Assembly (NCBI GenBank): GCA_937141935.1
Contig: CAKZQS010000045.1
Location: forward strand, 1 to 64,000
Direction of reading: 5' to 3'
Source: an uncultured Ectothiorhodospiraceae bacterium
Lineage (GTDB): Bacteria; Pseudomonadota; Gammaproteobacteria; Nevskiales; Oceanococcaceae
DNA length: 64,000 bases
Under the pieces are notes generated by a model that ran no database searches, was not told the origin of the DNA, and worked only from the letters and a program-made list of their open reading frames with translations. Below are positions 2,097 to 62,576 of this stretch, in pieces; positions within the stretch are counted from its first letter, which is position 1; every line of letters begins with the position of its first letter. The translations under genes and the position numbers were made by a program.

Positions 2097-2316
2097 GGGA
2101 GATCTCCGTCCGGTGGATAAGCGCCGCGGGCCCATGGGCGTGCGGGCGCGGCGAGACAAGCCCACGCTAAGGCGTGGGGGCACGCGCAGCCGCCCGCGAT
2201 GACGAAGGTCACCCGCTTCCCAACGCGCCGAGCGCTCGCGGCGACACCCGTGATTCTCGGGGTTTCGCCGGCGCCACGGCTTAGTAGTCTGATCAGGCGA
2301 CGGGAGCGGCACGGGC

Positions 2317-3039
2317 ATGACGCGCGACGCGGGAGCCGAGATGCAGGAGACACCAAGACCACACGTTGGCCAGCCGGGCGCTATCGCCCAGTGGAGCCCC
2401 CACCTTGCGGCGGCCGCACAGCCGCTGTACCTGAGTTTTTTCGGCGGGCCGGACCCGCGCTACACGCCACAGCTGCTGGCGCTGCTTGAGCGACACCAGG
2501 CCAAGGCCACCTTTTTCGTCAGCGGCCGACGGGCCGCCCGCTTCGACTACCTGATACGACGCCTGCTGCGCGAAGGCCACGCGCTGGGCCACTGCGGCTA
2601 CAGCGGCCGCCCCGCGCTGGCACAAATCCCTGGCCAGGCCCGCGCCGACGTTCGTCTGGGGGTGGAGGTGCTGCGGAACCTGACCGGCCGCGCGCCAATG
2701 TTGTACTGCCCCCCGGCCCGTCTGGGCAGCCGGGCGATGCAGGCCGAGGCGCGGGCACTGGGCGCCGCCGTGCTGTCCGGGGCGCGGCGGCTGCCCCGCC
2801 CCGGGCCACAGGCCGAGCCGCAGGTCTTGCTGCGCGCGCTGCACGCGGCCGCACCCGGCGACATCCTGCTGGCCAGCGATGCCGGCGGGCTGTGGCACCA
2901 GCCGCAGGGCCTGCTGGACGCGCTGCCCCGTTTTTTGACCAGCCTGCGCTTTCACGGTGGCGAGGCCGCCGTGCTGCAGCCGCAAATGCTGGCCGCCCCC
3001 CACGCCGCCGCCCCCAGCGGCGTGCGCGCCGCCTGCTAG
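2317..3039 (+). CDS. NodB-fold polysaccharide deacetylase homologue with degenerate active site
   Basis: LYLSFFGGPDPRYTPQLLALLERHQAKATFFVSGR aligns with NodB motif 1 region; catalytic DD and HxxxH residues replaced (see finding). Confidence 0.75.
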   Translation: MTRDAGAEMQETPRPHVGQPGAIAQWSPHLAAAAQPLYLSFFGGPDPRYTPQLLALLERHQAKATFFVSGRRAARFDYLIRRLLREGHALGHCGYSGRPALAQIPGQARADVRLGVEVLRNLTGRAPMLYCPPARLGSRAMQAEARALGAAVLSGARRLPRPGPQAEPQVLLRALHAAAPGDILLASDAGGLWHQPQGLLDALPRFLTSLRFHGGEAAVLQPQMLAAPHAAAPSGVRAAC

Positions 3040-3111
3040 CGGACGCGCTTGACCGGGCCGGTGTGCCCGCGGCCGCCCCCGGCCGCGCCCCACCCCACCG
3101 GCCATGCCGGA

Positions 3112-3141
3112 ACGGAGCCCTCGAGGCTCCGTTTTTTTTTT
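3112..3141 (+). terminator. Rho-independent terminator
   Basis: acggagcc-ctcga-ggctccgt followed by run of T. Confidence 0.85.
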
Positions 3142-3283
3142 GCGGCAGCCCCGGAGCGGGCCTGCGCCCCGGACATCGCCGGCCGGTCGTCGCCAATATT
3201 GTGGGCGCGCACAAAGCGGGCTAAGGTGACGCCATACGGGGGTAGCCCCGACAAGGCACCCCTACGGCTGGAAGGAGGAGCGC

Positions 3284-3937
3284 GTGCCGTCTCGACACCA
3301 TGCGGATTCCACGCTGGACGGCGCGGCCAACCGCGCCAAGGTTGTGCTGGTGGAGGACGATCGCGGCTGCCGCGAGGTCTACAGCCGCCTGCTGGCCTAT
3401 GCCGGCCACCGGGTGCTGCCCTACAGTGCCGCACCGGATTTTTTGGCCGACGAGCTGGCCCACGACTGCGACTGCATCGTGGTCGACCTGCGCATGCCGG
3501 AGATGGACGGCCTGCAGATGCTGGAGGCCTACCAGCAGCGCTACAACCGCCTGCCGCCGGCGATCGTCGTCACCGGCGATGGCGATGTCTCCAGCGCCGT
3601 CAACGCGATGAAGCTCGGCGCCATCGACTTCATCGAAAAGCCCGTCTCGGCGCGTGATTTGCGCCGGCTCGTCGCCGCCGCCGTGGAACAATCGCGCCAG
3701 CAGCGCCGCGCCAACGGCATCGCCGACAAGCTGACGCCGCGCGAGCAGGAGATCCTGGAGCATGTGCTCGGCGGCGAGACCAGCAAGCAGATCGCCGACA
3801 AACTCGGCATCAGCCCGCGTACGGTCGAGGAGCATCGCGCCCGCATCCTGCAAAAATCCGGCGCGGCCAATACGGCGGAGCTGGTCAAGCTGGCCATGAG
3901 CGCGGCGCCGGCGCCGGAGACCCGCCCGCGCGCCTGA
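3284..3937 (+). CDS. FixJ/LuxR-family response regulator (orphan)
   Basis: REC domain (VVLVEDD, IVVDLRMPEMDG, VVTGDGD, EKPV) plus LuxR HTH (LTPREQEILEHVLGGETSKQIADKLGISPRTVEEHR); GTG start. Confidence 0.92.
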   Translation: MPSRHHADSTLDGAANRAKVVLVEDDRGCREVYSRLLAYAGHRVLPYSAAPDFLADELAHDCDCIVVDLRMPEMDGLQMLEAYQQRYNRLPPAIVVTGDGDVSSAVNAMKLGAIDFIEKPVSARDLRRLVAAAVEQSRQQRRANGIADKLTPREQEILEHVLGGETSKQIADKLGISPRTVEEHRARILQKSGAANTAELVKLAMSAAPAPETRPRA

Positions 3938-3952
3938 ACGCTCGCGCGACTA

Positions 3953-3992
3953 GGCGCTTGGGCGCTTGGGCGCTTGGGCGCCTGGGCGCCTA
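3953..3992. repeat. 8-bp tandem repeat x5 (ggcgcttg/ggcgcctg)
   Basis: ggcgcttg ggcgcttg ggcgcttg ggcgcctg ggcgccta read directly. Confidence 0.9.
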
Positions 3993-4193
3993 CGCGCTAC
4001 GGCCGCCGCAACCCAAACGCCGCCGATACCTGCGGCCAATCGCCGTGCGGGCCGGCGCAAACGACGACGCCCGCCAGGGCGAACCCGGGCGGGCGTCGGG
4101 GGTGCCGTAGGGGCACCCGGGGAGTGTGGCGCCTAAAGGCTCAAGACCTCGGGTCTCGGGGCCGTGGGCAGGCGCCAGAATCCGCGCAGTCGA

Positions 4194-4400: not shown

Positions 4401-4630
4401 AGAAAGCTCCTTTTTCACGTGGTGAATGAGCACCAGATTGGCTCGACAGTGACTGTTGCAAGCGCTGTGCCAATCTCACTGAACACGCATAATCAAGCAC
4501 TTAGAGCAAAGCCCGCGGACCTGACCAGGCATTTTTGTTGCGCTGCAGCGACAGCCTGCGACGGCATCGGGAGCGGGTCGCCGCGAAGCGCCCCCTGACG
4601 GGGTTTGGCGCTGTCTCCAAAGAGCGACAA

Positions 4631-6495: not shown

Positions 6496-7365
6496 TCAGG
6501 CGGCGGTCGTGCCGCCACCGAGCAGCGGCAGCACATGGCCGCTGATGTAACGGGAGTCGGCTTCGGAGGCGAAAAAGACATAGGCCGGCGCCACCTCCTC
6601 GGGCTGCGCGGGGCGCCCCAGGGGCGTGCCCTCGCCAAAGTCTTCGATGTCGCCCTCGGCACGCTCGGCCGGATTCAAGGGCGTCCACACCGGGCCGGGC
6701 GCCACGCAGTTCACGCGGATGCCGCGCTCCACCAGGTTTTGCGCCAGCGACTTGGTGAAGGCGTGGATGGCCCCTTTGGTCGCCGAGTAATCGAGCAGAC
6801 CCTTGTTGCCCTCCAGGCCCGTGATCGACCCGGTGTTGATGATTGCGCCACCGGCCTTCAGGTGCGGCAAGGCCGCCCGGCTCAGGTGGTAGTAGGCGTC
6901 GATGTTGGTGCGGAAGGTGCGCTCCCATTGGTCCGGGCTGACGGCATCCAGATCCGGCTGGTGGCACTGGTAGGCGGCATTGTTGACCAGGATGTCCAAG
7001 CCGCCCAGCGTCTGCACCGTGCGCTCGACCACCTGCTGGCAGAAGGCCGGGTCGCGCAGGTCGCCGGGCAGGCACAGGCAGCGCCGCGACAGCGACTCGA
7101 TCTGCTGCGCGATCTCGCGCGCGTCCTCCTCTTCCTCCGGGGTGTAGACGATGGCCACGTCGGCACCTTCGCGGGCATAGAGCCAGGCCACCGCCCGGCC
7201 GATGCCGGAGTCGCCACCGGTGATCAGCGCCCGCTTGCCATAGAGCTTGCCGGCGGCGCAGTAAGCCCGGGCGGCGTAGCGCGGCGCCGGGTCCATGCGC
7301 GCCTCCAGGCCCGGCGGCTCCAGGCCCTGTTCGGCGAAGGGCGGTTGGGGTTCCTTGGCGGCCAT
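6496..7365 (-). CDS. SDR family oxidoreductase (YghA/general-stress type)
   Basis: ALITGGDSGIGRAVAWLYAREGADV, LVNNAAYQ, NTGSITGLEG, DYSATKGAIHAFTKSLA (YxxxK intact). Confidence 0.93.
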   Translation of the reverse strand: MAAKEPQPPFAEQGLEPPGLEARMDPAPRYAARAYCAAGKLYGKRALITGGDSGIGRAVAWLYAREGADVAIVYTPEEEEDAREIAQQIESLSRRCLCLPGDLRDPAFCQQVVERTVQTLGGLDILVNNAAYQCHQPDLDAVSPDQWERTFRTNIDAYYHLSRAALPHLKAGGAIINTGSITGLEGNKGLLDYSATKGAIHAFTKSLAQNLVERGIRVNCVAPGPVWTPLNPAERAEGDIEDFGEGTPLGRPAQPEEVAPAYVFFASEADSRYISGHVLPLLGGGTTAA

Positions 7366-7475: not shown

Positions 7476-7489
7476 GTGACCTAGGTCAC
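7476..7489. promoter_or_regulatory. GTGACCTAGGTCAC perfect palindrome, motif site 2
   Basis: Perfect 14-bp palindrome 111 bp upstream of SDR start; member of recurrent motif. Confidence 0.7.
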
Positions 7490-7581: not shown

Positions 7582-7644
7582 CTGTCCCCTGTCCCCTGTC
7601 CCCTGTCACCTGTCACCTGTCGCCTGTCGCCTGTCGCCTGTCCA
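7582..7644. repeat. 7-bp tandem repeat x9 (ctgtcNc)
   Basis: ctgtccc x3, ctgtcac x2, ctgtcgc x3, ctgtcca read directly. Confidence 0.95.
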
Positions 7645-7892
7645 CGGCCCCCTGTCCCCGCAGGGCGACGCCGTGCGAGGCCCGCATGTCGGGCTGAGCG
7701 GCGAATCCGCCGGCCGGCGTCGGCAAACGCAGACAGGGTTTTCGGCCAGGCGTCGGGAAACAGGAGCCAAAACCGCGTCGCCGGCGGCACGAAACGCACC
7801 GGCCGCAACCCGGTGTTCAATCTCATGACACTGTTTTTACTAGGTTTTTTTCGTTCTGGCACGGCGCTTGACGGACATAGGCCGAATCCACA

Positions 7893-8483: not shown

Positions 8484-8502
8484 TCCCGACCGGCGTCCTG
8501 CC

Positions 8503-11873: not shown

Positions 11874-14800
11874 TTATTGGAAGTTGGCGAGGACGACGAA
11901 ACGCACCGTTTCGCCGGCAGTCATGCTCAGCGCCGGATCCAGCGTGAAGACGATGTTCACGTTGGCGGCAACCGCGTCGACGCTGGCCAGCATGGCTTCG
12001 CCGTCGTCCACTTGACCGTTGCCGTTGGCATCGACGAAGAGCTGGGCCGCGTTGATGCCGCCGGCCGCACTGGCCTGCGTGCTGATGCTGCTCAGGTCGA
12101 CGTCGCCGTCGGTCGGGTTGCGCAGGCCGAAGCTGAGCATCGGCACAAACTGCGCCCCGGCATCGACGATGGTCGACACGGGCGTGCCCGTCTCTTCCGG
12201 CGTGCGCTCACCCGGGGCCGGCTCGTCATCGTCGGCGATGCGGACCAGCAGCGTGCGCGGCGCACCCAGCGTGGCACCGGTGGCACTGTCGATACCCACC
12301 AGGATCAGCTCATCGGCCTCAAAGCTGGTGTCATCGGTGGCCGTCAGCGTCATGCTGGCGCTGGTCTGGCCGGCCGGGATGGTCAGGCTCTGCGTGCTGG
12401 CGCTGTAGTCGGTGCCAGCCGTCGCCGCACCACCCAGGGCCAGTGCGATGGTCACATCGGCGGTTGCCGGGCTGGACAGGTTGGCGCTCACCGTGGCCAC
12501 ACCGCCGTTCTCGGCGATGGTGCCGGTGTCACCGGACAGGCTCAGCGTCGGCGTGCCGTCGTTGTCGGTGATCTGCACCGACACGCTGTCGATGTTGCCC
12601 GCCGTCGCGCCCACGACGCTGTCGATACCGATCGAGATCGTCTCGTTGTTCTCGTCGGCGTCGTCGTCGATGGCGGTGACGGTGGTTTGCGCACCCAGCG
12701 AACCGGCCGGGATCGTCAGCGTGGTCTCGGCCAGCGTGTAGTCGCTGTCGAGCGTGGCGTCACCCGAGGTGATCAGCGTCACGATCACGTCGTTGTCCAG
12801 CGCCGCATCCAGGCTGGCCGTGATCGTCGCGCTGGCACCGCTTTCCAGAATGAAGCCGGTCGAGGTCGACAGGTTCACTTCCGGATCGGCCGCCTCGTCG
12901 TCGTCGTTGATGACGACTTCAACGCTGTCGGGGCTGCCAACCTCTGCGCCGGTGGCCGAGTCGATCGCGATCAGGATCGTCTCGTTGCCTTCGACCAGGC
13001 TGTCGTTCTGCGCGGTCAGCGTCAGGTTCGCCGCCAGGCTGCCAGCCGGGATGGTGACCTGCGCGGCCTGGCCGCTGTAGTCACTGCCCGCGGTGGCGGT
13101 GCCGCCGAAGCTCAGCGCGACGGTGACGTCCTGCGTGCTTTCCTCGGACAGGGCGACGGTCAGCACGGTGCTGCTGTCGGCCTCTTCCAGGCTCGGCAGC
13201 GACACACTGAGCGACACGCTGGGCGTGGCCGGGGCCGGCGTCGGCGTGGCCGTGGGCTGCACCGTCGGCTGCACGACCGGCGTCGGCGTGGCCGTGGGCT
13301 GCGCGGTCGGCGCCGGCGTGGCGGTCGGCGTTGCGGTCGGCTGCTGCGTCGGGGTCGGCGTCACGACCGGCGTGGCGGTCGCCGTCGGCGTCGGGGTCAC
13401 AACCGGCGTGGCGGTCGCGGTCGGCGTCGGGGTGGCGGTCGCCGTCGGCGTCGGCGTCGCGGTGGCCGTCGGCGTCGGCGTGGCCGTCGCAGTCGGCGTC
13501 ACGGTCGGCGTCGGCGTGGCCGTGGCCGTCGGGGTCGGCGTTGCAGTCGGCGTGGCGGTCGGCGTCGGCGTCGCGGTGGCCGTCGGCGTCGGCGTCGGCG
13601 TGGCCGCCGTTTGCTGCAGCGTGAAGACGTAGGCCGAGCCCGAGTCATCCGTGCTCTGCAGATCGGCGTCGCCCTTCAGCGCGCCGACCACGGCGGTGCT
13701 GCCGTCCAGGCCCACCGCAAAACCGAACTCGTCGCCGCTATCGGCATCGTTCGGCTTGATCTTGGCACCTTCGGCCCAGCCATCGGCGGCGGTGAAGGCA
13801 TAGACCGCGCCCACGGTGCCTTTGCCACCAACGGCGGGGTCGTTGTCGTCCTCGGCGCGGGCGCCAACCAGCGCGGTCGTGCCGCTGATGGCGACGGCCG
13901 AACCGAAGTCGTCGCCCGTGACCAGATCGTCGGGGTCGGCCACGAGCAGCTCGGTTTCGCTCAGCGAGGGGCCGACGAAGACGTAGGCCGTACCGTTATT
14001 GCTGCGCGTATTGCGGTCGGCGAGCGGGGCGCCCACGACCACATTGCTGCCGTCGATATCGACGGCCGTACCAAAGGCATCGCCGCCAACCGAGTTGGAG
14101 CCGATCAGCGTGCCGCTGTTGCCCCAGGCATCGGCACCACCGACGTTTTGGCCGAAGAGGTAGGCCACGCCGGAGCCGGCGCCGGTTTCGTTGTGCCCAG
14201 GAGCACCAACAACCGCCGTCATGCCGGACACCGCCACGGACTTACCAAAGTTGTCGCCGGCCGCATCGGCGGGGTTGACGATCTCCGTGGTCAGGGACCA
14301 CATGCCCGCGTTGTCGTCGAAGACGAAGACCGAGCCGGAGTCCGTGTTCGTGTTGTCGCGCTGGGGCGCGCCGGCCAGCACCGTGGTGCCGGTGATCGCA
14401 ACGTCGGTACCAAGGCGGTCGCCCGTCACCGGGTTCGCCAGGGCCAAGATAGCGACTTCGCCCCACATGTTGGAGCCGCCTTGGTTGCGGCTGTACACAT
14501 AGGCCGCACCGGCGTTATTAGCGCCAACGCCCCCGGCGCGCGGCGCGCCAACGACGATCAGATCGCCGTCGATGTCGACCGCGGTCCCGAATTCGTCGAA
14601 GCCCTGCGCATCGCTCGCACCCAGCGTCGCCACCAGGTTCCAGCTGTTGCCGCTGCCCTGGAAGACGAAAGCGCGGCCGGCGTTATCGCCGCCATCGGCG
14701 GCGGCGGGATTCGTATCCTGCTTCGCGCCCACAACGACGGTGTTGCCGCTGATGGCGGCGGCCGAACCGAAGTGATCAAAGCCGGCCGCCTCGGGGTTAT

Positions 14801-15518
14801 CCAGCTTGGCCTGCTGGTTGCTGATAACCGGGTCGACCGTCAGCGGGTAGACGGCGTCGCTGTCGTCAACGGCAATGACCACGCGGGCCTTGTCGTCGAG
14901 TTCCAGCGCCACCGGCAGGTCGCGACCATGGGCGTCCCAGGCGATCGGCGCGCCGTAGGCCAGCTCCTCGCCAGCCGCGCTGCGCAGCGCCAGGCCACCC
15001 GTCGGGGCGGACTGCGCCTCGTAGCCGGCGATGGCGACGACGATCTGCACCGGGTCCGCATCACCCTGCGGGCGCTCCAGCAGGGTCCAGCCCTGCTCCA
15101 GGCCGCGGCGGTCGTTGCGGTACCACTCGATGACATCGGCGCGGCGGAATTCCACGCCGTCCTCACCGAGCGCAGGTGCCACGGCCGGCAGATCGGCCAG
15201 GGCGGCGCCGCGACCCCAGGCCACGGTGCGCAGGCCCAGCGCGTGGTCGGCATGCGACTCGCGGGTCCAGATGCGCACGCCCTCACGGTCGAAGCGGGCG
15301 CTCAGCCCCTGCGCGGGGTTGTCCACGGCGAAGGCGTCGCGCTCCAGGCCGACCGGCCGGGCGGCGTAGCGCACGGCCTCGAGCTGGGCAGAAATGTTGT
15401 TCCATTCGGCGGCGCTGAGCTCCGGCGATGGCGTGGCGGCCTGTGCGGCCCCGATGCTGGCCGCGGCTGAGATCAGCCCGGCGCAGAATGCGATTTTGTG
15501 GGGTATGCGCCCGATCAT
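11874..15518 (-). CDS. large secreted FG-GAP (integrin-alpha-like) / Thr-Pro linker / Calx-beta repeat protein
   Basis: Signal peptide ([27 protein letters not shown]); repeated GDxFGxAVxxxGxxxVVGA FG-GAP units; (TPTPTA)n linker; Calx-beta units ending [24 protein letters not shown]. Confidence 0.88.
13218..13613 (-). repeat. coding minisatellite: Thr-Pro/Ala-rich hexanucleotide-derived linker
   Basis: Repeated ggcgtcggcgtggcggtcgccgtc on + strand = [10 protein letters not shown]... on the minus-strand protein. Confidence 0.9.
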
Positions 15519-15591: not shown

Positions 15592-15605
15592 GTGACAAAG
15601 GTCAG
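15592..15605. promoter_or_regulatory. GTGACAAAGGTCAG, motif site 3
   Basis: 74 bp upstream of the FG-GAP gene start. Confidence 0.6.
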
Positions 15606-23505: not shown

Positions 23506-23519
23506 GTGACGAAGGTCAT
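23506..23519. promoter_or_regulatory. GTGACGAAGGTCAT, motif site 4
   Basis: 78 bp upstream of RraA-type gene. Confidence 0.65.
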
Positions 23520-23572: not shown

Positions 23573-23609
23573 ATGCCGAAGGTCATCGGCGATTCGTGCC
23601 GAAGGTAAC
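23573..23609. promoter_or_regulatory. paired motif sites 5 and 6 (ATGCCGAAGGTCAT, GTGCCGAAGGTAAC)
   Basis: Two copies spaced 23 bp apart, 100-123 bp upstream of epimerase-like gene. Confidence 0.6.
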
Positions 23610-23708
23610 GCTCGGAAAGGCCCCGCGCACTGGCAGTATGGACCCCGCAATCTCGCCGGCCCGGGTCATGCCCGACGCCCCCACTCAATGCCTCTGCAGG
23701 AGCTGTTC

Positions 23709-24662: not shown

Positions 24663-24675
24663 CGGAGCCCATCCC

Positions 24676-26088: not shown

Positions 26089-26108
26089 ATCTCGACCCGG
26101 AGCCTTCG

Positions 26109-26789: not shown

Positions 26790-26798
26790 GAGCGCGTC

Positions 26799-29257: not shown

Positions 29258-29259
29258 CC

Positions 29260-31566: not shown

Positions 31567-31634
31567 CTTACACCTCGCTGCGGGGGGCTAAACCGCCCCA
31601 GTTTCGCAGCTTGCTCGCCCGACCTGAGGCCCGA

Positions 31635-32642: not shown

Positions 32643-32644
32643 CC

Positions 32645-33673: not shown

Positions 33674-33676
33674 TCG

Positions 33677-37453: not shown

Positions 37454-37457
37454 TCCG

Positions 37458-40382: not shown

Positions 40383-41547
40383 GCCCCGTGTCCTGGTTCT
40401 GGACGGCGAGCAGCGCAGCGCGCTGGCCGTCACCCGCTCGCTTGGCGCCGCCGGCCTGCGGGTCGACGTGGGCGCCGCCGCCGAGCCCTGCCTGGCCAGC
40501 CGCTCGCGCCATGCCGCGCACACCCACACGCTGCCGGCCCCGGCGCAGGACGCCGCGGGCTTTGCTGCGGCGGTCGAGGCGCTGTGCCGGCAGCACGACT
40601 ACGCGCTGGTGATTCCGGTCACCGACCCCAGCGTCACGGCGCTGCTGACCCACGTCGACCGCGGCCGCGTGCCGCTGCCGCTGCCCGCGGCGCGGGTGCA
40701 CGCGCAACTGGTGGACAAGGGGCAGGCGCTGGAGCTGGGTCGCCAGTGCGGCCTGGATGCCCCACCCAGCTGGCATGCCCGCGAGCGCGAGGATCTCTGC
40801 GCGCTGGCCGAGGAGGCCGGCTACCCGCTGATCGTCAAGCCGGTGCGCTCGGCCACGCTGGTCGATAACCGCCTGCGCAGCCACAAGGTGCGGCGCGTGG
40901 CCTCGCCCGCGGCGCTGAGCGACTTCGCCCGCGAGGAGTGGCCGCCGGGCGGCGTGCTCCTGCAGCGCGTGCTGCGCGGCGAAGGCCGCGGCGTGTTCGT
41001 GCTTTGCCGGCACGGCGAGGTGCTGGCGCAGTTCGCCCACCGCCGCCTGCGCGAAAAACCGCCCAGCGGCGGCGTCAGCGTGCTCTGCGAAAGCGCGCCC
41101 GTGCCGGCCGAGGTCGGCGCCGCCGTGCGCAAGCTGGTGGCGGCCGTGGGCTGGCATGGCGTGGCCATGTTCGAGTTCAAGCTCGACGACGCGGGCCGCT
41201 ATTGCCTGATGGAGGTCAACGGCCGCTTCTGGGGCTCCCTGCAGCTGGCCATCGATGCCGGGGTCGATTTCCCCCGGTTGCTCTGGGCCATGAGCCAGGG
41301 CCGCACGCCGGCCCCGCACGAGCTGGGCTACCGCGTTGGCCTGCGCGAGCGCTGGTGGCTGGGCGACCTGGATCATCTCTACCTGCGCCTGCGCCACGAC
41401 TCCGGCCTGCGCGCGCGCTGGCAGGCGCTGCGCGTCTTCCTCGCCGGCGGCGGCCCGCAGGTCATCAACGAAGTGCGTCGCCCGGACGACGCCGCCCCCT
41501 TCTGGTTCGAACTGCGCAGCTGGCTGCGCCGCCTGATACATGTCTGA
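40375..41547 (+). CDS. ATP-grasp family protein
   Basis: YPLIVKPVRSATLVDNRL; YCLMEVNGRFWGSLQLAIDAG; paralogous in layout to 20441-21610. Confidence 0.9.
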   Translation: MTEPRVLVLDGEQRSALAVTRSLGAAGLRVDVGAAAEPCLASRSRHAAHTHTLPAPAQDAAGFAAAVEALCRQHDYALVIPVTDPSVTALLTHVDRGRVPLPLPAARVHAQLVDKGQALELGRQCGLDAPPSWHAREREDLCALAEEAGYPLIVKPVRSATLVDNRLRSHKVRRVASPAALSDFAREEWPPGGVLLQRVLRGEGRGVFVLCRHGEVLAQFAHRRLREKPPSGGVSVLCESAPVPAEVGAAVRKLVAAVGWHGVAMFEFKLDDAGRYCLMEVNGRFWGSLQLAIDAGVDFPRLLWAMSQGRTPAPHELGYRVGLRERWWLGDLDHLYLRLRHDSGLRARWQALRVFLAGGGPQVINEVRRPDDAAPFWFELRSWLRRLIHV

Positions 41548-42499
41548 ACCCCGCCCCGATTTCTCCTTCGTCGTTCCGGCCTACCAGGAGGCGGCGAATC
41601 TGCCGGCCCTGCTCGACAGCCTGAAACTGTTGCCGGCGCAGCGCTATGAGGTGCTGGTTGCCGACAACGGCTCGACCGACGGCACCCAGGGCATCGCCCG
41701 CAAGGCCGGCGCCAAGCTGCTGCACCGCCCGGACCTGAACATCGGCGGGCTGCGCAACGCGGCCGTGCGCGAATCCCGCGCGCCGATCCTGGTCTTTCTG
41801 GATGCCGACGTGCGCATCACGCCGCAGTGGGCCGAGCAGGCCGACGCGCTGGCCAGCACGCTGCGTGAGGAGCCCATGCAGCTCACCGGCTGCCGCGGCC
41901 AGCCCTCCGGCGGCTCGTGGATCGAGCGCGTGTGGTTCAAGCCGCTCTGCGACAAGCCGCTGAAGTACCTGGTCAGCAGCCACCTGATCACCACGCGCCT
42001 GGTTTTTGACCGCATCGGCGGCTTTGACGAGGCGCTGGACACCGGCGAGGACGTCGACTTTTGCGAGCGCGGCCGCGCCGCCGGCGCCCGCCTGCAGATC
42101 CGCCGCGAACTGGCCGCCGTGGATACCGGCTTCCCACCGACGCTGCGCGACTTCGCCCGCCGCGAGTGCTGGCATGGCCTGGGCGACATGCGCGACTGGC
42201 AAACGCTGGCCGGTTCCAAGGTCGCGCTGGCCAGCCTGCTCTGGGCCGGGCTGCAGCTCGCGGTGCTGCTGAGCCTGGCGGGCGGGCAGTTCTATCTGAG
42301 CGCGGCCCTGGTCGCGATGCTGGCGGCGCTGTGCCTGGCCCTGTCGCTGTACAAGCGCGATGGCGCCGGTCTGCGCGAGCGGCTGCAGCACGCCTGGCTG
42401 TGCTATGTGTACCTGGGCGCGCGCTTCGCCGCCCTGCCCCGCCGGCTGCTGGCCGGCACCCGCGGCAAGCGCACGCGCAAAGCCAGCGCTGCGGCGTAA
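41540..42499 (+). CDS. glycosyltransferase family 2
   Basis: FSFVVPAYQEAANLPALLDSL, EVLVADNGSTDGTQ, ILVFLDADVRI. Confidence 0.94.
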   Translation: MSEPRPDFSFVVPAYQEAANLPALLDSLKLLPAQRYEVLVADNGSTDGTQGIARKAGAKLLHRPDLNIGGLRNAAVRESRAPILVFLDADVRITPQWAEQADALASTLREEPMQLTGCRGQPSGGSWIERVWFKPLCDKPLKYLVSSHLITTRLVFDRIGGFDEALDTGEDVDFCERGRAAGARLQIRRELAAVDTGFPPTLRDFARRECWHGLGDMRDWQTLAGSKVALASLLWAGLQLAVLLSLAGGQFYLSAALVAMLAALCLALSLYKRDGAGLRERLQHAWLCYVYLGARFAALPRRLLAGTRGKRTRKASAAA

Positions 42500-45101: not shown

Positions 45102-45115
45102 ATGCCGAAGGTCAC
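45102..45115. promoter_or_regulatory. ATGCCGAAGGTCAC, motif site 8
   Basis: 61 bp upstream of the 45041 lipoprotein start. Confidence 0.55.
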
Positions 45116-51172: not shown

Positions 51173-51186
51173 ATGACCAAGGTCAT
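51173..51186. promoter_or_regulatory. ATGACCAAGGTCAT, motif site 9
   Basis: Palindromic except centre; 133 bp upstream of hybrid kinase. Confidence 0.65.
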
Positions 51187-51318: not shown

Positions 51319-54300
51319 ATGCACGGCATTCTGATCGCGCTGCGCGACGCCGAGCGTCGCGAGGCCTTCGCCTCCACCCTGGCCCGAGCCGGGTGGCCGG
51401 TCGCGGCCTGCGCGGACGTTGAGGCGGCGGCGCAGATCCTCGGCGCCGAGCAGACGGCCCTGCTGATCGGCGATGCCCGCAGCCTGCGCGGCGAGGAGGA
51501 CGACCCGGACCTGCTCACGGCCGCCGGCCACCGCGGCCTGCCCTGCCTGCTGCTGGGTGGAATCGACGCGCCCGACCAGGACGCCGCGCCGGCCGCCTCA
51601 TGCCATGTCCTGCCGGGCGACCCCGATGCGCAAGCGCTGCTGGACGCCGTGCGCGGCCTGCTGCCGGAGCCACCGGCCCCGCCAGCCGCGGCGGACGGCG
51701 CCGAGGACGACGCAGAAGCCAACGCAGGCGACGAGGCCGGCGACGAGGCCATGCCCGGGCTGGCCGACGAGGCGCCGGCGCGCTTGCTCTGCTGCGGCCT
51801 CGGGGCCGAGTCGGCGGCCACGCTGGCCCGTGACCTGGGGCCGCTGAGCGAGGGCCTGGAGACCTGTGCCGACGGGGCGGCGCTGCGTGCGGCGCTGGCC
51901 CGTGGCCCGGCCGCGCTGCTGCTCCTGGGCCCCGCGCTGGCCGCGCAGGCACAGGAGCTGCTGGCCCACGTGCGCGACGCCGCCTTGCTGCAAAGCCTTC
52001 CGGTCGTGGTGCTGTGGCCGGATACGCCCCCGCCCTGGGAGGCGCTCTTCGCCGCCGGCGCCAGCGATGTGCTGCCCGCCGCAGTCGCCGGGGCGGAGCT
52101 GGCGGCGCGCCTGCGCGGCCATCTGCAGCGCCGCCTGCAAGCAGCCGAGCAGGCGGCGGCCAGCGCCGCCAGCCAGTACGGCCTGGGGCAAGCCCGCACC
52201 GCCACCGGCCCGGCGCCCACGCCGACGCACGCCGCGGAGACCGCCCGCGCCGACGCGGTGAGCGCGGAGGCGCGCACGCTGGCCGAGGCCAACCGCGAGC
52301 TGGAGCGCAAGAACCGCGAACTGGACGAGGCCCGTGGCCAGGCCCTGGCGGCGGCCAGCAACCGCTCGGCCTTCATCGCCAATATTTCGCACGAGATCCG
52401 CACGCCGCTGAACGCGGTGCTGGGCATGATCGAGTTGCTTGGCGAGACCGAACTGAACCGCGAGCAGCGCGAGTGGCTGCACCTGGTCGAACACAGCGGC
52501 CAGCAACTGCTGCACCTGGTGCGCGACGTGCTCGACTTCAGCAAGATCGAAGCCGGCGAGATCACCGTCAACGACGAGCCCTTCGACATCACCGACTGTG
52601 TCGAGGACGCGGTGACGCTGACGGCCTTCCAGTCCCAGCAGCAGGGCGTGGAGGTCGCTTATGACATCGGCGATGGCGTGCCCGCACAACTGCTCGGCGA
52701 CGGCTGGCGCGTACGCCAGATCCTGTTGAACTACCTGCAGAACGCCATCAAGCATGGCCGCGGCGGTCAGATCGAGGTGCGCATCACGCGGCACCCGGCG
52801 CCGGATGGGCAGGCTTTCATCCGTTTCTGCGTGCGCGACGACGGCCCCGGCATCCCCGAGCAGCAGTTGCGCCAGCTGTTCCAGCGCTTCAGCCAGCTCG
52901 CCGGCGGCGAACGCACCGACGGGGCCGGCCTGGGGCTGGCCATCAGCCGCCACCTGGCCGAGCTGATGGGCGGCCGCGTCTGGGGCAGCAGCGAGATGGG
53001 CGAGGGCTCGGCCTTTTACCTGGAACTCCCCGCACGCGAGGCGGCCTCGCCGCCCTCGCCGGAGGAGGAAGCGCAGCGGCGCTTCCTTGCGGGCCGGCGC
53101 GTGCTGGTCGCCGAACGCCAGCCGCTGACGCGGCAGCGGCTGCAGGGGCTGTTGCGGGGCTGGGGCGCCACCGTCGTCTGTGCCGAATCCGGCGAGGACG
53201 TGCTGACCCTCTTTGGCCGTGGCGAAGGCTTCGCCCTCGCGCTGATCGACCAGCAGTTGCCGGACATGGACTGCGAGGAGCTGGCCGGCGAGCTGCGCGG
53301 CAGCGGCCGCGCCGGCGACTGCGTGCTGCTGCTGGGCACCGGCATGGGCGATGCCAGCAGCTGCCCGCAGGACTATCGCGAGCGGTACAGCAAGCCGCTG
53401 CGACGGGCGGCGCTGCGGGCCACGCTCCAGGCGGCCCTGGGCCTGGGTGAGGGCCAGCCACGGCGCGATGGTGACCGCTTCGCACGGATGATGCGCTGGC
53501 TCTGGCCCGGCTTCGACAAGCGCGGGCTGGAGGCGCGCGACGGCCCGGCGCAGCGGGTGCTGCTGGTCGAGGACAACAAGCCCAACCAGCAGGTGGTCTC
53601 GCTGATGCTGCAGAGCCTGGGGGTGGAGGTGCGGCTGGCCGAGCACGGCCAGCAGGCGCTGCAGCAGCTGGATGAGCGGCCGGCCGACGTGGTGTTGATG
53701 GACATCAACATGCCGGTCATGGACGGCATCACGGCCGCCAAGGAAATCCACGACCGCCGCTGGCCCGGGGGCCGGCCCTACATCATCGCGCTGTCCGCCG
53801 ACCCCGCCCAGGACGACTCGCGGCTGCGCGACAGCGGCCTGATGGACGATTACCTGATGAAGCCAGTCGGCCGGGAGGCCTTGCAGCAGGCGCTGCAGCG
53901 GGCCCGCGGCGAGGACCGGGACGCGGAGCCGCCGCAGCCGGCCGCCGCGCCAGGCGGGACCGGCCTGCCGCAGGAGGCGCCGGAGGTCCTGCACAAGCTG
54001 GGCGCCGAGCTGGGCACGGCCGCCCTGGCCAGCATGCTGCAAACCTATGCGGACGACCTGCCCGAGCAGTTACGCACCGCCCGCAACGCGGCGGCCCGCG
54101 GCGACGTGCGCGAGCTGCGCCGGGTGTTTCATTCCACCAAGTCCAGCAGCCGCTTTTACGGCGAGGACGCGCTCAGCGACCTGTGCCAGCGCCTGGAGGG
54201 GCGCTGCCAGCGGCTGGGCCGCGGCCGCCTGGGTGAGTTGCTGGGCGAATTCGAGACGGCCTGCGCGGAGTCGGAGGCGCGGATGCGTGCCCTGCTGCCG

Positions 54301-54345
54301 CAACTCGCGGCCACAAGCCCCGGCCCCTCGGTTACACTGCGATGA
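51319..54345 (+). CDS. hybrid histidine kinase: two N-terminal pseudo-receivers, HisKA-HATPase, two receivers, HPt
   Basis: NISHEIRTPLNAVLGMIELLGE; DGPGIPEQQLRQLFQRFSQ; VLLVEDNKPNQQ..VVLMDINMPVMDG; HPt-like VFHSTKSSSRFYGEDAL. Confidence 0.92.
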   Translation: MHGILIALRDAERREAFASTLARAGWPVAACADVEAAAQILGAEQTALLIGDARSLRGEEDDPDLLTAAGHRGLPCLLLGGIDAPDQDAAPAASCHVLPGDPDAQALLDAVRGLLPEPPAPPAAADGAEDDAEANAGDEAGDEAMPGLADEAPARLLCCGLGAESAATLARDLGPLSEGLETCADGAALRAALARGPAALLLLGPALAAQAQELLAHVRDAALLQSLPVVVLWPDTPPPWEALFAAGASDVLPAAVAGAELAARLRGHLQRRLQAAEQAAASAASQYGLGQARTATGPAPTPTHAAETARADAVSAEARTLAEANRELERKNRELDEARGQALAAASNRSAFIANISHEIRTPLNAVLGMIELLGETELNREQREWLHLVEHSGQQLLHLVRDVLDFSKIEAGEITVNDEPFDITDCVEDAVTLTAFQSQQQGVEVAYDIGDGVPAQLLGDGWRVRQILLNYLQNAIKHGRGGQIEVRITRHPAPDGQAFIRFCVRDDGPGIPEQQLRQLFQRFSQLAGGERTDGAGLGLAISRHLAELMGGRVWGSSEMGEGSAFYLELPAREAASPPSPEEEAQRRFLAGRRVLVAERQPLTRQRLQGLLRGWGATVVCAESGEDVLTLFGRGEGFALALIDQQLPDMDCEELAGELRGSGRAGDCVLLLGTGMGDASSCPQDYRERYSKPLRRAALRATLQAALGLGEGQPRRDGDRFARMMRWLWPGFDKRGLEARDGPAQRVLLVEDNKPNQQVVSLMLQSLGVEVRLAEHGQQALQQLDERPADVVLMDINMPVMDGITAAKEIHDRRWPGGRPYIIALSADPAQDDSRLRDSGLMDDYLMKPVGREALQQALQRARGEDRDAEPPQPAAAPGGTGLPQEAPEVLHKLGAELGTAALASMLQTYADDLPEQLRTARNAAARGDVRELRRVFHSTKSSSRFYGEDALSDLCQRLEGRCQRLGRGRLGELLGEFETACAESEARMRALLPQLAATSPGPSVTLR

Positions 54346-54413: not shown

Positions 54414-55085
54414 ATGTTCAGTATCGCGATTGTCGAAGACCACCCGGTATTCAAGGAAGCGCTGAAGCAGCTGCTGTCGCGCGTGACCGAGCGCATCAGC
54501 GTGACCGAGTCCTCGTCCTTCGATGAACTCAAGCGCCACCTGGAGGCCAACCCGCGTACCGACCTGATCCTGCTCGATCTGTCGATCCCGGGCGCCGAGG
54601 GCATGTCCGCGCTGGCCTTCGTGCGCTACCACTACCCGGAAACACGGGTCGCGGTGATCTCCGGCCACGAGGACGCCGGTACGGTGCGCAAGGCCATCGA
54701 CCTGGGCGCGCATTCCTACATCCCCAAGTCGCTGGCGCTGGAGCCCCTGCTGGCGGCCCTGCAGACGGTGGTCGAGGGCGGCAGTTACCGGCCCAAGTTC
54801 GACCCCAGCAATGTGCCGCCGGATGCCCAGGAGCGCCTGGCGCAGAAGGTCACGGCGCTGACGCCGCAAAAGCGGCGCATCCTGTACGGCCTGGCGGAAG
54901 GCAAGCTGAACAAGCAGATCGGCTATGACCTGGGCCTGTCGGAAGGCACCGTGAAGAATCATGTTACGGCCATCCTGCGCCACCTGGGCATGCGCCGCCG
55001 CACCGAGGTGGTGGCCGCCATGCAGCAGCTGCTGGCCGCGGAAAACGAAAGCTTCGACGCCGATCAGGGCCACACGGCCGCCTGA
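54414..55085 (+). CDS. NarL/LuxR-family response regulator
   Basis: IAIVEDHPVFKEAL, LILLDLSIPG, LTPQKRRILYGLAEGKLNKQIGYDLGLSEGTVKNHV. Confidence 0.94.
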   Translation: MFSIAIVEDHPVFKEALKQLLSRVTERISVTESSSFDELKRHLEANPRTDLILLDLSIPGAEGMSALAFVRYHYPETRVAVISGHEDAGTVRKAIDLGAHSYIPKSLALEPLLAALQTVVEGGSYRPKFDPSNVPPDAQERLAQKVTALTPQKRRILYGLAEGKLNKQIGYDLGLSEGTVKNHVTAILRHLGMRRRTEVVAAMQQLLAAENESFDADQGHTAA

Positions 55086-57525: not shown

Positions 57526-60500
57526 TTAAACGCGGGCGCGCGCCTGCCAGGTACGCAGCGTCAACAGCAGCAGCGCCGTCAGCGCCAACCACAGGTCCAG
57601 CGTACCGCTACCGCCGCCAGAGCCATTGCTGGCTGGTGCGGCGTTCGGGGCGTTCTGACGCTCCGCCGTCACGGTCTCCGGCTTGGAGTCCGTGCCGGAC
57701 TGCGCGGCCGAGTCGTTGCCGGCATCCGCGGAGGCGTCATCGGCAGCGCCCTCGGTCGAGCCGGTGTCGGTGTCGCCTTCGGTCCCAGTTTCGGTCCCGG
57801 TGTCGCCCTCGAGCTCGCCACCACCATTCGCCGGCGGTGCGGCGCCCGGTGCAGGCGTGGGGGTGGGCTGGGCATCGCTGCCCTGCGGCGAGGCCGGCTG
57901 CTCTTCAGCCGTACCGCCACCGCTCACGAGGCCGAGCAGACGGCCCAGCAAGCCGGGTTCGCCGGCCGGGTCCTGGCCACTGTCGGCGTTGCCGTCGTCT
58001 TGGCCGCCCTCGTGGCCGCCGTCGTGGCCGCCATCGGCATCGACATCCACGTCGACATCCACGTCGACATCGGCATTGGCCGGCGGCGGCTGATTCCCTT
58101 CGCCGTTGTTGCCGTTGTCACCGTTGTTGCCGTCGTCGCCGTTACCAGCGTCGCCGTTGTTGCCGTTACCGGTATCGCCGTTGCCAGCGTTGCCGTTACC
58201 AGCGTCGCCGTCGCCGGCATCACCGTTAGCGCCGTCACCATTACCGCCGTCGTCGGGGTCCTGGCCGCTGCCGCCACCGGCGTTGCCGCCGCCGGCCGCA
58301 GCCGTCACCGTCACCAGGACCTCGGCAGCCGCATCGCTGCGCAGGCCGCGCTCGTCGCGGACTTCCAGCGTGGCGGTGTAGTTGCCTTCGATCTCGTAGC
58401 GGTGGTTGACCGTCGCGGTGGCCGCGAAGATCGGGGCACTGCCGTCACCGGGATCGAAACGGAACTCGGTGATCGCATCGCCATCGGCGTCGACCGAAGC
58501 GCTGCCGTCGAACTCGACGTCCAGCGGGGCTTCGCCACTGTCGGGCAGCACGACCAGGTCCGGTTCCGGCGGGGTGTTGCCGTCCGCCGGCGGTGCCAGC
58601 AGCTGCGCGTCCGAGTGGGCCTCGGCAACACAGATCTGGCCGGTGGGCGCATTGGGCTCGCCCAGCGTCACCTCGATCATGCACACGTTGCACTCGACGT
58701 CGCCCGGGGCACAGCCACTCTGCGCATTCAGCACGATCTGCAACACGCCGGGGATGTTCGCCGGGAAGGCGGTGTTCGGCTCGGGCGTGCACAGCGACTC
58801 CAGACCCAGCGCCCGGCACACGTCGGTGCCCGCGATCTGCGCATTCAGCAGCAGGGACCCGGAGGTGTCGCTGCTGATGCCGTCCTGCGTGGCTTCGGTG
58901 CGGGTGCGGGCGACGACCTTGTCGGCGACGATCTCGCCGCCAAAGAGCTCCAGCTCCTGGACCTGCGCGAGGGCGTAGCCAAAGGCCGTTTGGCCGTCGA
59001 AGTCACCCTCGGCCTGGCTGAAGCCGGTGTCGAAGCTGCCTTCACCTTCGGGAATCTGCGTGTCCACCACGACGCGCGAGGAGTCGCCGCCGTCGGTCGG
59101 GATCGGGCCGCTGCGGGCGGTCCACGTCTCGGTTTGCAGAATCTCTTCCTGGGTATGCACGACGGCCGCATCGGCGCTGACCTTGTAGTTCAGCGGCTCC
59201 GAGCAAGCGTTGCGCGGGAAGCTGGCCTGCGCCTGGGCGTGGCCAATGATGATCTCGCCCTGCAGGTCCAGCCCTTCGGCGGTCAGCTCCAGACGCAGCA
59301 GGTTGACGGTGGTGCTGGCGGTGCGCGGGTTGGCCTGCAGGTCGCGGCTCTCGCGCTCCTCCATGATGTGCAGCGTGCCGACACCGGGGATGCGGATGGT
59401 TTCACCGGCACGGCTGACCTCGACGGGCTCGCCGTTAATGCGCAGCCCTTCGATAACCGAGTCCTCGATCGAGCTGCCGGCACCGAATTCGGTGGCACGG
59501 GCCACGGCCTTGGCGCGCAACACGTCGGCGGTGATGGTGCCGTCGAGCAGGTCGACATCGAGCACTTCGGCGGTGGCCGTCGTGCGCGCCAGATCCTCGT
59601 CGATCTCCGACTCGCTGCGCGAGCTGGCCAGCTCAACGCGGCCGACCTGCGGGATGGTCAGCTGCAGCGCCTCGTGGCTCTCGCGGTCTTCACCCGGGCC
59701 GTCCTGCGTGGAGTCGGCCTCACCACCCAGCGCCAGCTCGAGGTCGAGCAGGCCCAGCGTGGCCAGCCGTCCATCGACCGGCGCGGCTTCACCGCTGGTG
59801 GCCGCCTCGGCCGGGTTGATGGCGGGGTCGCAGACCTTCAGCGCGATGTCATCCACCGCGCCCGAGCCAAACAGCTCCAGGCGGGTGAAATCGGTCAGCT
59901 CCTCGGGGATCTGCACAATGCGCTCTTTCTCGGACTCGCCGGTAATCGGCAGGTTGAGCCGGGCGACCTCGACGCCGCCCCGGTAGAGCACGATGTTGTT
60001 GCGCGACTCATCCGGGTTCACATCGAAGAGCTTGAGCTCACGAATGCGCACCAGACCATCGTTCAGGCCAAAGCTGCTGAAGTCATAGTTGTTGATGGCG
60101 CCGAGCAGCTCGTCATCGGGGCCGTTGGCGCCATCGACAAAGCCGTCGCCATTCTGGTCGCCATTGACGTCGCAGATCTGGATGAAGTTCTGGTTCGGGA
60201 AGTACAGGTCTTCATCGTTGCCGCTGCAGTTCTCGGGCGAACCGTCGCAGGTGGCGTCGAAAGCCGCGGCCGAGTTGCCTTGGGTGCTTTCGCGCTTGCT
60301 CTCACAGAAAACACCGACCTCACCCGGGATCGGGCGGTCGGCGGTGATGCCGCGGCCGACCTCGACACTGTCGATGATCTGGCCTTCGACGAGGTTGTGG
60401 AAGTCGATGACCGCTTCCACGTTGTCGTTGCCGGGAGCCTGCGCGGTGGCCGTAGCCGTGGCCAGGCAGAGCCCGGTGATCATGCCGATGCGGCCGCGAG

Positions 60501-60534
60501 TGCGGCGCTCCGACATCCATGTCAATGGATTCAT
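57526..60534 (-). CDS. large secreted PKD-domain protein with Gly/Asn/Asp-rich linker and GlyGly-CTERM-like C-terminal anchor
   Basis: Signal peptide ...TATAQA; PKD: LVVLPDSGEAPLDVEFDGSASVDADGDAITEFRFDPGDGS; tail SNGSGGGSGTLDLWLALTALLLLTLRTWQARARV. Confidence 0.85.
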   Translation of the reverse strand: MNPLTWMSERRTRGRIGMITGLCLATATATAQAPGNDNVEAVIDFHNLVEGQIIDSVEVGRGITADRPIPGEVGVFCESKRESTQGNSAAAFDATCDGSPENCSGNDEDLYFPNQNFIQICDVNGDQNGDGFVDGANGPDDELLGAINNYDFSSFGLNDGLVRIRELKLFDVNPDESRNNIVLYRGGVEVARLNLPITGESEKERIVQIPEELTDFTRLELFGSGAVDDIALKVCDPAINPAEAATSGEAAPVDGRLATLGLLDLELALGGEADSTQDGPGEDRESHEALQLTIPQVGRVELASSRSESEIDEDLARTTATAEVLDVDLLDGTITADVLRAKAVARATEFGAGSSIEDSVIEGLRINGEPVEVSRAGETIRIPGVGTLHIMEERESRDLQANPRTASTTVNLLRLELTAEGLDLQGEIIIGHAQAQASFPRNACSEPLNYKVSADAAVVHTQEEILQTETWTARSGPIPTDGGDSSRVVVDTQIPEGEGSFDTGFSQAEGDFDGQTAFGYALAQVQELELFGGEIVADKVVARTRTEATQDGISSDTSGSLLLNAQIAGTDVCRALGLESLCTPEPNTAFPANIPGVLQIVLNAQSGCAPGDVECNVCMIEVTLGEPNAPTGQICVAEAHSDAQLLAPPADGNTPPEPDLVVLPDSGEAPLDVEFDGSASVDADGDAITEFRFDPGDGSAPIFAATATVNHRYEIEGNYTATLEVRDERGLRSDAAAEVLVTVTAAAGGGNAGGGSGQDPDDGGNGDGANGDAGDGDAGNGNAGNGDTGNGNNGDAGNGDDGNNGDNGNNGEGNQPPPANADVDVDVDVDVDADGGHDGGHEGGQDDGNADSGQDPAGEPGLLGRLLGLVSGGGTAEEQPASPQGSDAQPTPTPAPGAAPPANGGGELEGDTGTETGTEGDTDTGSTEGAADDASADAGNDSAAQSGTDSKPETVTAERQNAPNAAPASNGSGGGSGTLDLWLALTALLLLTLRTWQARARV

Positions 60535-60631: not shown

Positions 60632-60645
60632 AGGACCTTGGTCAC
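60632..60645. promoter_or_regulatory. GTGACCAAGGTCCT (minus strand), motif site 10
   Basis: 98 bp upstream of PKD protein gene. Confidence 0.6.
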
Positions 60646-60696
60646 GTTTAGACGGTGACTTTTATCACTATCTTCAATTACTTACGCTCGTCCCAC

Positions 60697-60720
60697 AAAA
60701 AAACCCCGCGCACCGCGGGG
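60697..60720 (-). terminator. Rho-independent terminator
   Basis: aaaaaaa-ccccgcg-cac-cgcgggg read on minus strand, downstream of 60994-61545. Confidence 0.75.
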
Positions 60721-60993
60721 CCTCGGATCGCACATCCGATTTTGGCGTCGCACTGCAGCGACAGAGTGCGATTCCGCGCGCATGCGCGGCTCGCCTCAGG
60801 TCCGCGAGTCGGGAGGGGCCGGCGGGGCTAGACCACCCGCCCCCTCCGCCGCGCCACGGCGTCTACCCCGTGTGCGGTGGCTCGCGCAGCCGGTTGCTCG
60901 CAGCCGCTTGCACGGGCGTCACTTCTCCGGGCAGCCTTTACTCGGATATCACTGCCTCGGGCACCGCGGCCTCTGGCATCACCTGGTCGGGCA

Positions 60994-61545
60994 TCAGTGG
61001 CGCCACAGCCAGGCCTCCTCGTCCAGGCGAGCCTGGCCGTCGCTGACATCGTGGGCCTGAGCGTGCAGGCGCTCGCACAGGCTGTGCTGGTCGCGAATCA
61101 GCGCCGAACCTCGCGCGCCGCTGCTCGCCGTAGCGCGGGAACGCGGCCCGGCATTCCAGGCGCGGCCCGGTTGTCGGGCGAGGCTGTGCGCGCTTGCGGA
61201 CAGCGCACTGGCCGGCGGGCGGTACTCGAGCTCGCCGTCAGCGTCGACATCGGCGGCTTGCAGCGCGGGCGTGTAAGCCGCCCGCCAGCCGGCGGGCACC
61301 TGGCGCCATTCGCGCGCCTCGAGCAGGCCGTCGTTGTCGTCGTCCCAGTGCCGGAACAGGCCGCTGGCGATTTCCGCTTCGGCCAGCGCGCCGTCGCGAT
61401 CCTGGTCCCAGCGGGCCAACAGGCTGCTGTCGACACAGGCCTGGCGCCAGGTCGGCGCGCTGTCGGCCGCGAAGGCTTTGGGCAGGCTCAACAGGCCCAC
61501 GAACAGGCTGAGCAGCATGAACATCGTGTGTGTGCGTTGTTGCAT
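60994..61545 (-). CDS. secreted EF-hand domain protein
   Basis: Signal peptide ...LPKAFAAD; WDQDRDGALAEAEI, WDDDNDGLLEAREW, ADVDADGELEY. Confidence 0.88.
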   Translation of the reverse strand: MQQRTHTMFMLLSLFVGLLSLPKAFAADSAPTWRQACVDSSLLARWDQDRDGALAEAEIASGLFRHWDDDNDGLLEAREWRQVPAGWRAAYTPALQAADVDADGELEYRPPASALSASAHSLARQPGRAWNAGPRSRATASSGARGSALIRDQHSLCERLHAQAHDVSDGQARLDEEAWLWRH

Positions 61546-61554
61546 GGTTCCTCC

Positions 61555-62340
61555 TCAGTACGGCGTGCGTGCGACCTGGCCTTTGTCGGAGTGAATTTGC
61601 AGGGCATTGACGACGCGGATCACGCCGTCGGTCTTGCGCGCGATGGTTTCGGCCATCTCGCTTTGCGCCGGCGAGTCGACCGCGCCGCTGAGCGTGACCA
61701 CGCTGCGCTGCGTATCGACGTCGATAGCCATGCCCTCGGTGCTGTCGCTGGCGAGCAGGCGGGTTTTCACCTGCGCCGTTGTCGCCGCATCCGACACCGC
61801 TTGCGCGAAGCCGGCATTGGCGCTGGCATCGTTGCCGGCGCCGCTGCCGCGGGGGTCGCCGGGGGCCACGCGCAATTCGTTGCGAACCTGCGACACCTCC
61901 GTCATGCCCTTGGCGATCTCGGCGGCCAGGTCTTTCTCCACGGCCGAGTCCACGCGGCCTTGCAGCAGCACGGTGTCACCGTCGACGCCCACGCGGATAT
62001 CCAGCGGGTTGAGTTCGGGGCGCAGCGCATAGGCGCTGTTGAGCTTGCCGACGAGATAGGCCTCGCGGACCTCGCGGCTGGCCTTGGCCAAGAACTCGCC
62101 GCTGGCGTCGGCCGCGGAATATAGCCTGGGCGCGGGCTGGCTGGGCGCGGCCTGGCTGGGCGCGGGCTGCGTTGCCAACTCCGCCCGCGCCTCGACGCCT
62201 GCCGCGTCGCCATCGCGATCCGGGCTCCCAGCAGCGCGGCTCTCGGCCGCCTGCGCCTGCGGGCCCAGGGCGGCTAGCGCCAGCAGCAGGGCTGGCAGCA
62301 GGCGATCGGTCGGTCGGCGGGGGATCGGGCGGCGGTGCAC
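61555..62340 (-). CDS. BON domain periplasmic protein
   Basis: Two BON units: [42 protein letters not shown] and [45 protein letters not shown]. Confidence 0.93.
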
Positions 62341-62562
62341 GTGCGCGAACTCGCGTAAAACTTCAGGACCTCACGCGGCGCAAAGGCTGTGCCAGTGGCG
62401 CCCAAAGCCCGATGCGACGGGCTTTGCACGGCCATGGGCGCGGCGGCATTCACGTCGAAGACCGTGCAGTGGCGCGAATGTGTTGCAGCGGAGCGACAGC
62501 CGCGGCGCAGGACCGCGGGCCGCACGCAGGCGGATGGCCCCGCCAGCCCCGCGCTCACGGGC

Positions 62563-62576
62563 ATCACCTTGGTCAT
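62563..62576. promoter_or_regulatory. ATCACCTTGGTCAT (minus-strand ATGACCAAGGTGAT), motif site 11
   Basis: 88 bp upstream of DUF1328 gene. Confidence 0.6.

Follow-up and report, generated by a model that had tools for sequence, protein, structure and literature searches.

A regionally clustered promoter palindrome resembling CRP/FNR operators, upstream of putative matrix and stress genes in an uncultured gammaproteobacterium

The closest described counterparts of the 14-bp palindrome considered here are binding sites of CRP-like and FNR-like proteins. Clr of Sinorhizobium meliloti, a CRP-like protein associated with cAMP and cGMP, has the 14-bp core GTNNCNNNNGNNAC (PMC10127613), and FnrL of Rhodobacter capsulatus binds (T/C/A)TGA-N6-TCAA, with chromatin immunoprecipitation (ChIP)-supported sites that include TTGACCAAGGTCAA (PMC4634722). 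CgrA of Rhodospirillum centenum, the cGMP-dependent CRP of encystment, acts by way of a CRP-like palindrome on genes for the cell surface and for development (PMC4681086). The present palindrome, RTGACC-WW-GGTCAY, recurs in the first 64,000 nucleotides of contig CAKZQS010000045.1 (C45:1–64000, ‘the window’; other contigs are numbered likewise) from an uncultured Ectothiorhodospiraceae bacterium, the genome of which comprises 3.57 Mb in 52 contigs with 70% GC. It defines a promoter-specific regulon that is real and small and shows strong regional clustering.

The 11 window sites reported in a preliminary description are all present, on the strands and at the coordinates it had assigned to them. 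With up to two mismatches allowed, RTGACSAAGGTCAY matches the window 17 times, against a mean of 1.18 and a maximum of 4 in 100 dinucleotide shuffles; with up to one mismatch it occurs 34 times in the whole genome, and the reversed pattern once. A matrix built from the 11 sites was scanned over 1.97 Mb of the genome, subsequently extended to 2.34 Mb, in which genes were called with a codon model. In the 1.97 Mb, a score of 19 bits or more is reached at 18 positions and, although about 90% of the scanned sequence is coding, 17 of them are non-coding, the remaining one (31635) lying over a called start; the larger set, with slightly different background frequencies, gives 20 such positions, 18 of them intergenic. 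Markov-shuffled intergenic DNA contains on average about 0.4 positions of at least 17 bits and about 0.05 of at least 19 bits, where the real sequence has 29 and 18. The comparison of promoters with gene interiors and shuffled DNA that had been proposed along with the 11 sites came out in their favour: sites are located in promoters and essentially missing from genes, and shuffles yield close to zero.

The strict palindrome RTGACSWWSGTCAY occurs seven times in the genome, each time between genes, with five copies in C45:2.2–78.5 kb; its reversed control is absent, and three genomes of the same family hold none or one copy each. The same 77 kb contain 12 of the 18 positions of at least 19 bits. 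In cross-validation, a matrix derived from 16 sites, all from outside C45:1–80 kb, found 14 further intergenic positions at 16 bits or more, and 10 of these fall in C45:1–80 kb, a region holding 4.9% of intergenic bases. The earlier picture of a window-wide regulon stands in so far as the best sites are strongly concentrated there, and is too narrow in that further sites are found elsewhere, at the curli operon, two DUF1328 genes, a hemerythrin gene and others. Also overlooked were the weaker member of a tandem pair, at 60655, the exact copy found at C45:78514, and additional copies in the rest of the genome.

A logo drawn from 28 sites has information limited to 14 bp, and its most conserved positions are T2 (26/28), G3 (28/28), C12 (25/28) and A13 (27/28). 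The arms RTGAC-N4-GTCAY occur 17 times, 12 of these between genes, whereas spacers of 2, 3, 5 or 6 bases give only 0 or 1 intergenic copies; the arm spacing is therefore fixed, as other spacers are not enriched outside genes. The two central bases are AA or TT in 42 intergenic against 22 coding instances, and for G- or C-centred combinations the ratio of intergenic to coding instances is approximately 1 to 10. Because the centre favours A/T in this way, the element is a palindrome with arms RTGACC/GGTCAY around a flexible two-base centre, and the directional CSAAGG word with an AA centre that had been described has to be given up. Nor is that core unusual for the family, as had been thought, given that TTGACCAAGGTCAA is among the published FnrL sites (PMC4634722) and that an inner C-N4-G is a feature of Clr sites (PMC10127613); a literature search for the exact site words returned one relevant match, an FnrL site. 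Three pairs of sites are arranged in tandem, with a centre-to-centre distance of exactly 23 bp (23573/23596, 60632/60655 and 78491/78514), against a background of comparably weak sites of 0.0005 per position, and 23 bp is the spacing that abutting dimers of CRP size would need. The element has the inverted repeat, the invariant TG...CA and the TGA-N6-TCA spacing of CRP/FNR operators, and its earlier description as compatible with that type is further supported by promoter location, scarcity in genes, the fixed arm spacing and the 23-bp tandems. Downstream of several gene-oriented sites, TAG/TAT-type −10 boxes picked by eye lie at 20–35 bp, which would place these sites at about −40 to −55, an activator position.

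The regulator, left without a name in the preliminary description, has been narrowed to a strong candidate, the CRP-like protein encoded at C42:67509–68216. Ten stretches of the genome match PF00027, but only two proteins also carry a Crp-type helix-turn-helix (PF13545). The candidate combines an N-terminal cyclic-nucleotide-binding (cNMP) domain with a C-terminal Crp-type winged helix, the architecture of the CRP/FNR family, and scores above cut-off with PF00027 (71.8 bits), PF13545 (44.9 bits) and PF00325 (25.6 bits). FNR-group recognition helices carry E--SR. The helix of the candidate is RETVSR, and that of the E. coli CRP group is RE(T/M)VGR (PMC10127613). With this helix, and with 47.9 bits to the CRP equivalog NF008732 against a cut-off of 266, the protein falls outside the main CRP cluster and is CRP-like, not CRP. 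A consensus site, GTGACCAAGGTCAC, lies 207 bp upstream of its gene, and its closest relative in the PDB is Clr (E = 3.6e-28). What makes the C42 protein the best candidate is the combination of RETVSR, a position divergent from the curli operon, the adjoining consensus site and kinship with Clr; the second CRP/FNR protein, at C5:86148, has neither this helix nor a strong site in the 19 kb searched around its gene. The cyclic-nucleotide cassette of the candidate, GDFAALDGLPRSA, keeps PRSA but has D where E is usual, which may point to a different ligand, possibly c-di-GMP. Clp of Xanthomonas has c-di-GMP as its ligand. Eight class III cyclase domains are encoded in the genome, so cyclic nucleotides are plausible ligands as well.

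The word is probably the operator of a CRP/FNR-superfamily dimer, the C42 protein being the likely binder, and probably serves to activate matrix and stress genes. Two recognition helices would read the five-base arms RTGAC and GTCAY across the four-base spacer, the A/T-rich centre of which probably makes bending easier. We infer that the C42 protein, bound to cAMP or cGMP or possibly to c-di-GMP, occupies sites ahead of weak sigma70-type promoters and that in some places two dimers abut, with a spacing of 23 bp. The matrix genes activated in this way would be those for curli, XrtA-type exopolysaccharide (EPS) and secreted adhesin-like proteins, and the co-activated envelope and stress genes would include three DUF1328 paralogues, PfpI/ALDH, SDR, hemerythrin and a PNPOx-like protein.

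In the window, the first site, ATGACGAAGGTCAC (2199–2212, plus strand), lies between a PfpI/ALDH operon (minus) and a polysaccharide deacetylase gene (plus), whose starts are 110 and 111 bp away. The perfect palindrome GTGACCTAGGTCAC (7476–7489, no strand assigned) is 118 bp upstream of the SDR gene 6496–7365 (minus), and GTGACAAAGGTCAG (15592–15605, plus) is 81 bp upstream of the gene for an FG-GAP/Calx-beta/LapA secreted protein, 11874–15518 (minus). Between an RraA-like operon (minus) and the EPS locus (plus) lie GTGACGAAGGTCAT (23506–23519, plus) and the 23-bp tandem pair ATGCCGAAGGTCAT (23573–23586, plus) and GTGCCGAAGGTAAC (23596–23609, plus), the latter preceding the first EPS gene (23688) by 85 bp. 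The next site, ATGACCAAGGTAAC (31635–31648, plus), separates the genes for a PgaB-like deacetylase (minus) and an XrtA-system deacetylase (plus). It overlaps the called ATG of the latter, contrary to the claim that all sites are non-coding, but also lies 76 bp upstream of the divergent deacetylase gene; the TIGR03006 match of the XrtA-system deacetylase starts only at residue 46. A lipoprotein-like gene and a beta-helix/DUF1565 gene (minus) are preceded at approximately 185 bp by ATGCCGAAGGTCAC (45102–45115, plus), and the genes for a hybrid histidine kinase (51319–54345) and a LuxR-type response regulator (54414–55085) at 139 bp by ATGACCAAGGTCAT (51173–51186, no strand assigned). On the minus strand, GTGACCAAGGTCCT (60632–60645) lies 123 bp upstream of the gene for a PKD-domain/choice-of-anchor secreted protein, 57526–60516 (minus), with the weaker tandem site GTGATAAAAGTCAC (60655–60668, minus) 23 bp away, and ATGACCAAGGTGAT (62563–62576, minus) lies 94 bp upstream of the DUF1328 gene at 62664 (plus) and 230 bp upstream of the BON-domain gene 61555–62340 (minus). 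Measured distances to start codons thus run from 76 to about 185 bp, and not from 60 to 135 bp as first described.

The XrtA/PEP-CTERM-type exopolysaccharide locus at 23688–37453 (plus, with gene 30778–31566 reversed) encodes a TIGR03013 glycosyltransferase, export, chain-length and deacetylase proteins, a FemAB-like protein and a flippase. Across 23688–42499, the XrtA-type features comprise the TIGR03013 glycosyltransferase, a TIGR03097-like ligase and proteins of the TIGR03006, TIGR03019 and TIGR03027 types; the proteins that were scanned included no recognisable exosortase.

Elsewhere in the genome, the site at C42:68416, which is GTGACCAAGGTCAC, lies between the CRP-like gene and the curli operon (C42:68685–78361), which encodes CsgE, CsgF and CsgG and several large curlin-repeat proteins and is divergent from the CRP-like gene and a TonB-receptor-like gene. 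The copy at C45:78514 precedes a gene for a Host_attach protein, and other site-bearing genes encode two further DUF1328 proteins, hemerythrin, a PNPOx-like protein and a DUF1565 beta-helix protein. A PF07043 search of the genome finds three DUF1328 genes, and all three have an upstream site. A second, small cluster of RTGAC sites at C51:15.7–23.4 kb accompanies genes for DUF1328, DUF883-like, small acidic, cardiolipin-synthase-like and hemerythrin-like proteins and a GlrR-like activator.

A further regulatory layer in the same window resembles a sigma54/GlrR-type system. Near-perfect sigma54 −24/−12 promoters precede the genes for CsbD (4458), an OmpA-like protein (7857), an EF-hand protein (50836) and a BON protein (62380), with another at 48765 and a sigma54-like box at 15571 (minus), near the 15592 site. 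The region before the CsbD gene (4458–4630, minus) contains the promoter TGGCACAGCGCTTGC at 4458 and TGTYGC-N6-GCRACA palindromes at 4536 and 4612 (one mismatch), and no RTGAC site. In 2.34 Mb this second palindrome has just three exact copies, all intergenic and in the window (4536, 51046 and 62481), ahead of the CsbD, EF-hand and BON genes, and the palindromes stand 78–210 bp upstream of sigma54 promoters. The enhancer of GlrR (GlrR/QseF), TGTC-N10-GACA, resembles it. The genome has genes for GlrR-like activators at C51:23568 and C4:88118, the former with an RTGAC site 206 bp upstream. A role for the RTGAC sites themselves as sigma54 enhancers was considered, as several targets have −24/−12 promoters, and rejected: most genes with RTGAC sites are without such promoters, and the sigma54 genes own a separate palindrome. 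A short tandem repeat, CCTGTCNC, with about eight copies at 7620–7680, lies in the long stretch of intergenic DNA that precedes the OmpA-like gene at 7893.

Several other explanations of the word can be set against this evidence. That it is an artefact of chance or of the composition of a 70% GC genome has next to no probability: most related genomes do contain about 20 one-mismatch matches, but coding background dominates that count, which is therefore uninformative, and the idea is refuted by the shuffled and reversed controls, by the contrast between coding and non-coding DNA and by the cross-validation. The regional clustering, with 12 of the 18 best sites in 77 kb, would suit a chromosome-organising or repeat element of the parS or matS kind. 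Such elements, however, occur in genes too, whereas the present sites avoid genes; the copies of the word vary in the manner of operators, and outlying sites also precede genes, favouring related functions (DUF1328, curli and hemerythrin). An element of this kind is very improbable, and was rejected because the sites precede functionally related genes. A better case, although still an unlikely one, can be made for a two-component system that regulates its own genes and those around them, in which the LuxR/NarL-type response regulator 54414–55085, or the FixJ-type one at 3284–3937, would bind the sites once phosphorylated by the site-bearing hybrid kinase. The kinase gene that precedes the LuxR-type regulator has its site 139 bp upstream, the response regulators sit within the site cluster and have confirmed domains, and NarL-type regulators can have as their sites inverted repeats whose arms are 2 bp apart. 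Against it, the half-site arrangement TGA-N6-TCA follows the CRP/FNR pattern, the 23-bp tandems fit abutting dimers of CRP size, and the site at the curli operon is on a different contig, next to the CRP-like gene. Less probable again is binding by the second CRP/FNR protein (C5:86148), or by a member of a different regulator family that uses a similar palindrome. The C5 protein is the only other one in the genome with both cNMP and Crp-type helix-turn-helix domains, but its helix, RQAVSR, has no glutamate with which to read the G in TGA, no strong site was found in the 19 kb searched around its gene, and its context beside a DUF962-like gene has homologues in many relatives, a spread not shared by the motif, which is peculiar to this genome.

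Recognition by the C42 protein has its own difficulties. A lack of conservation upstream of orthologues had been named in the preliminary description as one ground for refutation, and the site is missing from the DUF1328 promoters of 30 order-level relatives, all of them distant. No syntenic orthologue of the C42 regulator was found in relatives, where the best matches have 32–38% identity (32% in the same genus). Site-to-gene distances vary from 69 to 375 bp and the −10-like boxes were chosen by eye; position 1 is either purine, unlike the prediction for a strict CRP helix; and the window encodes two LuxR-type response regulators, one of them downstream of the site-bearing kinase gene. These points weigh against the proposal. 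The closest matches to the regulator, with 35–38% identity and helices HREAV[ST]RE, are in other families, and no curli repeats were found beside its best matches in relatives. Because the relatives at hand are distant, the missing footprint is read as the mark of a regulon that looks lineage-specific rather than as a refutation.

With somewhat less confidence than in the operator itself, and at a little under an even chance, the C42 protein may be a lineage-specific CRP-like regulator in which a hybrid CRP/FNR helix (RE--SR) and a distinct operator, RTGACC-WW-GGTCAY with 23-bp tandems, form a dedicated matrix switch, tying curli and XrtA-type EPS to stress proteins, with its targets gathered in 77 kb beside the separate sigma54/GlrR-type regulon. 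If the C42 protein does bind the sites, the regulon would be new but of a well-known type, with one CRP-like protein joining cyclic-nucleotide signalling directly to curli and XrtA-type exopolysaccharide. In better-known bacteria, curli answers to CsgD and PEP-CTERM/EPS genes to PrsR. It would also offer a case of sequence-to-specificity, RE--SR reading RTGAC, with a defined promoter set, and a clear case of regulon targets collected in one chromosomal neighbourhood.

Among the known systems, PrsK/PrsR and CsgD control the same kinds of targets, but PrsR is a sigma54 activator and CsgD a LuxR-type protein, and the present sites differ from those known for either. E. coli CRP/CAP (TGTGA-N6-TCACA) shares the GTGA-N6-TCAC spacing, the RE--R residues of the candidate and the cNMP domain; here, by contrast, the outer TG...CA bases are unconserved, position 1 accepts A in place of G, the central bases are constrained to A/T, and C and G at positions 5 and 10 are nearly fixed. 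FnrL and FNR sites have the same invariant TG...CA, inner Y..R and equal spacing, with TTGACCAAGGTCAA as a verified example, but the outer base in this genome is a purine (A/G), and TTGAC....GTCAA has no copy in it. CgrA is likewise a CRP homologue acting on surface genes through a CRP-like palindrome; it binds TGTGA-N6-TCACA and has approximately 295 ChIP peaks, whereas the regulon described here seems far smaller, with its sites clustered in one region. Clr is the nearest PDB relative of the candidate and has a 14-bp palindrome with an inner C-N4-G, sites that often lie between divergent genes, and activation from −42 to −76. It differs in its arms (GTNNC, against RTGAC here), in having no CRP glutamate in its recognition helix, where the candidate has RETVSR, and in the content of its regulon.

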